From an uncultured Maricaulis sp. (GTDB taxonomy: Bacteria > Pseudomonadota > Alphaproteobacteria > Caulobacterales > Maricaulaceae): a stretch of 64,000 nucleotides of DNA. Location: assembly GCF_947259345.1 (NCBI RefSeq), contig NZ_CAMYLS010000027.1:62001-126000 (forward strand), read 5' to 3'. Under the pieces are notes generated by a model that saw only the letters and a list, made by a program, of their open reading frames with translations, was not told where the DNA came from and did not search any database. The position numbers and the translations under genes were made by a program. Of this stretch, positions 39,070-39,103 are shown piece after piece; within the stretch, counting starts at the first letter, position 1, and every line of letters begins with the position of its first letter.

Positions 39070-39103
39070 CACGCGTGCGCGCGTGCGTACGCGTGTGCGC
39101 GCG
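39070..39103. promoter_or_regulatory. Z-DNA-prone alternating pyrimidine-purine tract upstream of gyrB
   Basis: Thirty-four bases of perfect pyrimidine-purine alternation, mostly CG and TG/CA steps with a single TA step (39089-39090), ending 37 bases before the gyrB ATG. Such tracts flip to Z-DNA under negative supercoiling. The role in gyrB control is inference. Confidence 0.7.

Follow-up and report, generated by a model that had tools for sequence, protein, structure and literature searches.

Why does a long, perfectly alternating pyrimidine-purine (Y/R) tract stand just upstream of gyrB, and could it act on that gene? We addressed this in a 64-kb window, by which we mean the whole stretch of DNA that was analyzed, and in the gyrB upstream regions of related genomes. 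We consider, with a probability of roughly 55%, that the tract is a cis-acting DNA-structure supercoiling sensor at the gyrB promoter, giving gyrB negative feedback. The features of the locus are the following.

39066..39070, no strand assigned: GANTC site (CcrM-type methylation) bordering the tract on its left, from reading of the sequence
39070..39103, no strand assigned: perfect pyrimidine-purine alternating tract of 34 bp, a Z-DNA-prone element, from a Y/R run scan
39094..39103, no strand assigned: right-hand tract core TGTGCGCGCG, nearly invariant in sequence across the genus (16 genomes)
39106..39111, plus strand: putative -35-like hexamer TGGTCA, from conserved columns, 2 bp past the tract
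39129..39134, plus strand: putative -10-like hexamer TACAAC, from conserved columns, 17 bp past the -35-like hexamer and 6 bp before the ATG
39141..41543, plus strand: gyrB, DNA gyrase subunit B, with an ATG start (NCBIfam TIGR01059)

We identified 34 consecutive Y/R-alternating bases at 39070-39103, the second-longest run in the 64-kb window being 14 bp. The gap between the tract and the gyrB ATG (39141) is 37 bases, and the gene product was identified as GyrB by the NCBIfam equivalog TIGR01059 (973 bits vs. a cut-off of 882); the perfect 34-bp alternation and the 37-bp distance described in the earlier note were thus both borne out. Across the 3.25-Mb genome, every match to a 26-bp YR pattern overlaps the gyrB tract, and the counts for a 22-bp pattern (7, plus 6 in the opposite phase) equal exactly what the gyrB run itself yields, with the gyrB tract being the sole run of at least 22 bp in its genome. 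An 18-bp pattern was found at 2 further places, with lengths of 18 and 19 bp. No YR run longer than 12 bp was identified at the loci of 2 gyrA/parC-family matches and 1 topA-family match in the same genome (L189-L191; parE left out). The 34-bp tract has the long, strict Y/R alternation rich in CG, TG, and CA steps that defines Z-forming sequences, and the steps counted over 18 tracts of the genus were CG (180), TG (51), CA (23), and TA (17). TA steps, the costliest for Z-DNA, were not avoided (17 of 271 vs. approximately 10 expected with the two positions independent). Downstream of gyrB and convergent with it, a long minus-strand ORF (41763-44555) reads by eye like DNA polymerase I. In the window, the gyrB reading frame remains open across the greater part of the tract; an N-terminal coding extension of gyrB through the tract was considered and rejected, as length differences within the genus are not multiples of three and the open frame counts just 802 codons in G006, 806 in G008, and 804 in G016.

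Of 19 same-genus genomes, 18 could be read at the gyrB 5' end, which G007 lacks, and all 18 carry an alternating tract just upstream of gyrB. Tract lengths were 28 to 38 bp in 15 genomes, 20 bp in G006, 18 bp in G013, and 18 + 13 bp in G011, where a single base splits the run. Counted from the ATG, the right end falls at -33 to -38 in each of these genomes except G011, in which the first piece alone was measured. When 28 tract columns of 16 genomes (leaving out G006 and G013, which have shorter tracts) were mapped on the gyrB tree, we counted 32 base changes with only 1 change of purine/pyrimidine class, whereas 62% of the changes at 330 four-fold gyrB sites were class changes (binomial P of approximately 2e-12, a value that ignores alignment uncertainty). 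Between the -35 region and the ATG (columns 52-86), 25 of 44 changes were class changes. When all 18 genomes were included, columns 24-49 held 48 changes, with 10 changes of class, since in G006 and G013, with their short tracts, part of this interval is non-alternating flank. In a gap-free alignment of six genomes, we counted 6 variable tract columns, each of which kept its class, and in the same six genomes 167 of 231 variable four-fold sites held a transversion. The alternation is therefore preserved more than the exact letters in the gyrB tracts of the genus, as the earlier note had expected of related upstream regions. CpG hypermutability as the source of the transition bias was unsupported, since four-fold sites in CpG context had an unchanged class-change ratio (252 of 406). 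These results suggest that selection maintains the pyrimidine-purine alternation of the tract, which would allow a flip to Z-DNA.

In 13 of the 18 genus genomes, the 22-bp pattern counts equal the yield of the gyrB run itself; further runs of at least 22 bp occur in the other 5 (G006, G011, G012, G013, and G017) and exceed the gyrB tract in length in G006 and G013. Five such alternating runs of 22-23 bp were seen at L155-L159 (G006, G011, and G012), each near base 1500. No YR run of at least 18 bp was identified outside the gyrB leader region in 88.9 kb covering the 18 genus gyrB loci. Neutral dinucleotide slippage, which would make the tract a microsatellite-like remnant, would fit the even tract length in all 18 genomes (first piece in G011). 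Against it, the repeat units are mixed (CG, TG, CA, and TA), the tract persists while four-fold gyrB sites average approximately 2.9 changes each, and no other run of at least 18 bp was seen in a scan of 48 gyrB loci; we regard slippage as a very improbable origin.

The two halves of the tract differ in how fast they change. In the 16 genomes, the left 16 columns held 30 changes with 1 class change, and the right 12 columns held 2 changes, both class-preserving. Given these change counts (30 vs. 2), the halves appear to be under differing constraint, with the left half looking constrained for alternation alone and the right half, which lies beside the -35-like hexamer, for sequence too. A nearly invariant right half could also be the site of a sequence-specific regulator that recognizes CG-rich DNA, with the conserved TGTGCGCGCG next to the -35 as one candidate. 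Such a regulator would leave unexplained why the left half changes quickly yet keeps its class, why tracts can be as short as 18 bp and as long as 40 bp, and why the bases are unlike between families. We consider a regulator site rather unlikely.

Palindromy was assessed against alternation-preserving shuffles. Self-pairing over the 19 tracts of the genus and G030 was no better than in the shuffles (193 pairs vs. 190.5, P = 0.31; stems, P = 0.24), which argues against an inverted repeat, acting through cruciform extrusion or as the palindrome of a dimeric protein, with the alternation as a by-product. On its side are the near-perfect palindrome of G015 (P = 0.013 on pairs and on stem), that of G014, near-perfect by stem length (P = 0.082 on pairs and 0.015 on stem; all four values uncorrected over 19 tracts), and the sum across 14 Bosea-family tracts (P = 0.037). 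In the g311 members L214 and L257, moreover, a single base interrupts the alternation and a CG-rich inverted repeat seems by eye to be retained, which hints at a palindromic relative of the tract element. We consider an inverted repeat improbable as the basis of the gyrB tract.

We then place the tract relative to the predicted start of gyrB transcription. In the 18 genus upstreams aligned leftwards from the ATG, a -10-like hexamer (TACAAC, TACAAA, TAGAAA, or TAGAAT) precedes the ATG by 5-6 bp, and 17 bp above this hexamer lies a -35-like element, TGG(T/C)CA or TAGCC(A/G). The tract stands directly beside these conserved promoter-like hexamers, which we take to resemble a Caulobacter-type promoter. 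This putative promoter is based on spacing and conserved columns, not on a sigma-70 scan; consensus sigma-70 and terminator scans of the gyrB upstream in the window found nothing. The sequence between the tract and the ATG in the window (39104-39140) suggests a leaderless promoter for gyrB, with a predicted start at the ATG itself. Since the predicted promoter lies between the tract and gyrB, the tract is more likely to be an element at the upstream edge of the promoter than to belong to the gyrB leader, where the earlier note had placed it; that placement is probably wrong. The position of the tract points to a control of gyrB. A GANTC site was identified within the last 120 bp in 16 of 18 genus members, at a position that varies by clade.

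The predicted promoter downstream of the tract also bears on whether the element could act as RNA, as a hairpin within a gyrB leader transcript. The strand does fold to -58 kcal/mol across 143 nt; its fold z-score is -1.59, with 15 of 200 shuffles equally stable, no Rfam family matched at the gathering threshold, and the genus has no palindrome excess. On the fold z-score and the absence of an Rfam family, a structured RNA leader was rejected, and we hold an RNA hairpin to be extremely doubtful.

The preferred reading, a supercoiling sensor, requires that the tract can flip at a plausible superhelicity. B-Z energies were taken from Table 1 of PMC3024258 and used in a simplified single-run model. 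The calculated flip threshold was a sigma of approximately -0.031 to -0.037 for domains of 20 to 5 kb (about -0.031 at 20 kb and -0.036 at 5 kb in the series over four domain sizes), and -0.045 and -0.054 for smaller domains of 2 kb and 1 kb, respectively. A full flip of the 34-bp tract would cost a calculated 26.7 kcal/mol and relieve approximately 6.9 turns, so that a 5-kb domain at a sigma of -0.05 would be left at approximately -0.036. All 18 genus members and 6 tract-bearing family members had |sigma_c| values of 0.035-0.039, and the remaining 34 of 40 family upstreams had values of 0.043-0.061. As thresholds saturate with tract length, the narrow range of sigma_c was set aside as proof of tuning; because they also vary with the assumed domain size, the energetics speak to feasibility only. 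Compared with the physiological superhelicity range, the calculated thresholds make a flip within that range plausible.

The calculated relief would also suit a topological buffer or insulator, in which the flip soaks up supercoils from transcription of gyrB or of its upstream neighbors and keeps torsion at the promoter constant without feeding back on gyrase. Consistent with such a role, the tract is kept while the upstream neighbors are replaced: by Pfam, the neighbor is VTT in L008, LysE in L018, and Rce1-like in L017. In the window, the 398-residue piece of the upstream gene (39008 and leftwards) had no Pfam match. Immediately left of the tract in L018, a short ATG-to-stop stretch looks by eye like what is left of the Rce1-like gene, of which L017 has a longer version. 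Buffering alone leaves unexplained why it is gyrB that has the sole run of at least 22 bp in 13 of the 18 genus genomes, and we judge this alternative unlikely.

Outside the genus, the tract becomes patchy. We read 46 further loci of the same family separately, without scoring them in the class sample described below, and identified alternation of at least 14 bp near gyrB in 6 of the 46 upstreams and none in the other 40. The six carriers have tracts of 40 bp (G030), 18 bp (three Oceanicaulis members), 17 bp, and 14 bp; the 17-bp tract sits, by eye, between -35- and -10-like elements. On a 38-row GyrB tree, the presence and absence of the tract require at least 4 changes. Within Oceanicaulis, close relatives occur both with and without the tract, and the short Oceanicaulis tracts weigh less because certain of these genomes are richer overall in alternating runs.

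A second family also has such tracts at gyrB. In a set of 80 named alphaproteobacterial gyrB loci, three had runs of 20-24 bp within 200 bp upstream, and these are the three Bosea of the set; one other locus had 13 bp. Bosea and close kin (L074, L083, L105, and L192-L194) have 20-24 bp of alternation within approximately 200 bp upstream of gyrB. For the family that surrounds Bosea and G282 (90 of 116 matching genomes read), alternation of at least 16 bp was found in 16 of 90 gyrB upstreams, spanning 8 genera, and 74 were without it, vs. 0 of 89 in a control zone 300 bp further up (Fisher P of approximately 8e-6, with relatedness ignored). In the Bosea-like genus g291, to which G282 belongs and where GyrB is 92-96% identical to Bosea GyrB in 3 of 4 cases, close relatives again occur both with and without the gyrB tract. 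By eye, the tract reaches or enters the -35-like element in Bosea, g302, g299, and others, and lies nearer the -10 in g164. No YR run of at least 18 bp was identified outside the gyrB leader region in 150.8 kb covering 30 Bosea-family gyrB loci. The class sample comprised 60 members, of which 59 gyrB upstreams were scored, and none had a run of 16 bp or more, nor of 14 bp; L059 and L307 were dropped from the scan for want of the anchor motif. This sample is closer to Bosea than average because it was picked from the best matches listed. In the class control zones, a run of at least 14 bp was found in 2 of 58 and of at least 16 bp in 0 of 58.

In the proposed mechanism, negative supercoiling beyond the threshold (a calculated sigma of approximately -0.031 to -0.037 for 5-20 kb) would flip the tract to left-handed Z-DNA, which would absorb up to approximately 7 turns and create a B-Z junction bordering the -35. 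The expression of gyrB would fall because the flip would take away the torsion used for opening of the -10, or hinder RNA polymerase, or both; upon relaxation of the DNA, the tract would return to B-form and gyrB would rise. The promoter is predicted here, and so are the adoption of the Z-form in cells and the direction in which gyrB would respond. Of the supercoiling-sensor reading in the earlier note, the kept alternation, the recurrence at gyrB in another family, and the plausible calculated thresholds speak for it, and its placement in the leader did not hold. A wider claim is that a protein-free Z-DNA torsion sensor, conserved by structure rather than by sequence, has arisen at least twice in Alphaproteobacteria (in the family of the window and in that of Bosea) and sets gyrB output by local supercoiling, to which we give about even odds.

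In Escherichia coli, gyrA and gyrB are gyrase genes stimulated by DNA relaxation, and at ilvPG an AT-rich SIDD-type element undergoes strand separation upstream of the promoter and activates it. The gyrB tract would resemble the ilvPG element in that an upstream structural transition is proposed to couple supercoiling to transcription, but it is GC-rich and Z-prone and would be expected to dampen. The induction of gyrase genes by relaxation has long been known (PMC5055605), and our system shares with E. coli gyrA/gyrB and with Streptomyces coelicolor gyrBA (PMC5055605) the same gene and the problem of making gyrase when DNA is relaxed. It differs in having a conserved candidate element, whereas the term "Z-DNA" has 0 occurrences in the main text of the S. 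coelicolor paper (PMC5055605). According to PMC8422995, the discriminator model alone is insufficient for relaxation-stimulated gyrase promoters, and competition with nearby structural transitions is named there as a possibility. The tract is like the SIBZ sites of PMC3024258 in its strict Y/R alternation, its richness in CG and TG, and a threshold-like flip under negative superhelicity; SIBZ, however, is a physical prediction method, and here the alternation is conserved at one gene across species. In another alphaproteobacterium, Brevundimonas subvibrioides, the gyrA and parE promoters are regulated by GcrA-CcrM through GANTC sites (PMC7987155), and the GANTC site near a topoisomerase promoter is a point of likeness. 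Unlike at the GcrA-CcrM promoters, the position of GANTC varies here and 2 of 18 genomes lack the site, and no alternating tract is described for B. subvibrioides gyrA/parE in the excerpted text of PMC7987155. The titles and abstract openings of the open-licence PMC papers listed in our searches mention no Z-DNA element at a gyrase promoter.

If the preferred reading is true, the tract would provide a cis mechanism for the relaxation-stimulated transcription of gyrase. To our knowledge, a natural regulatory role of Z-DNA in bacteria has lacked a conserved, testable site. Since the element is short and sits at the gene where it makes most sense, and since there are close relatives with it and close relatives without it, both the question of how relaxation is sensed and that of a role for Z-DNA become testable.
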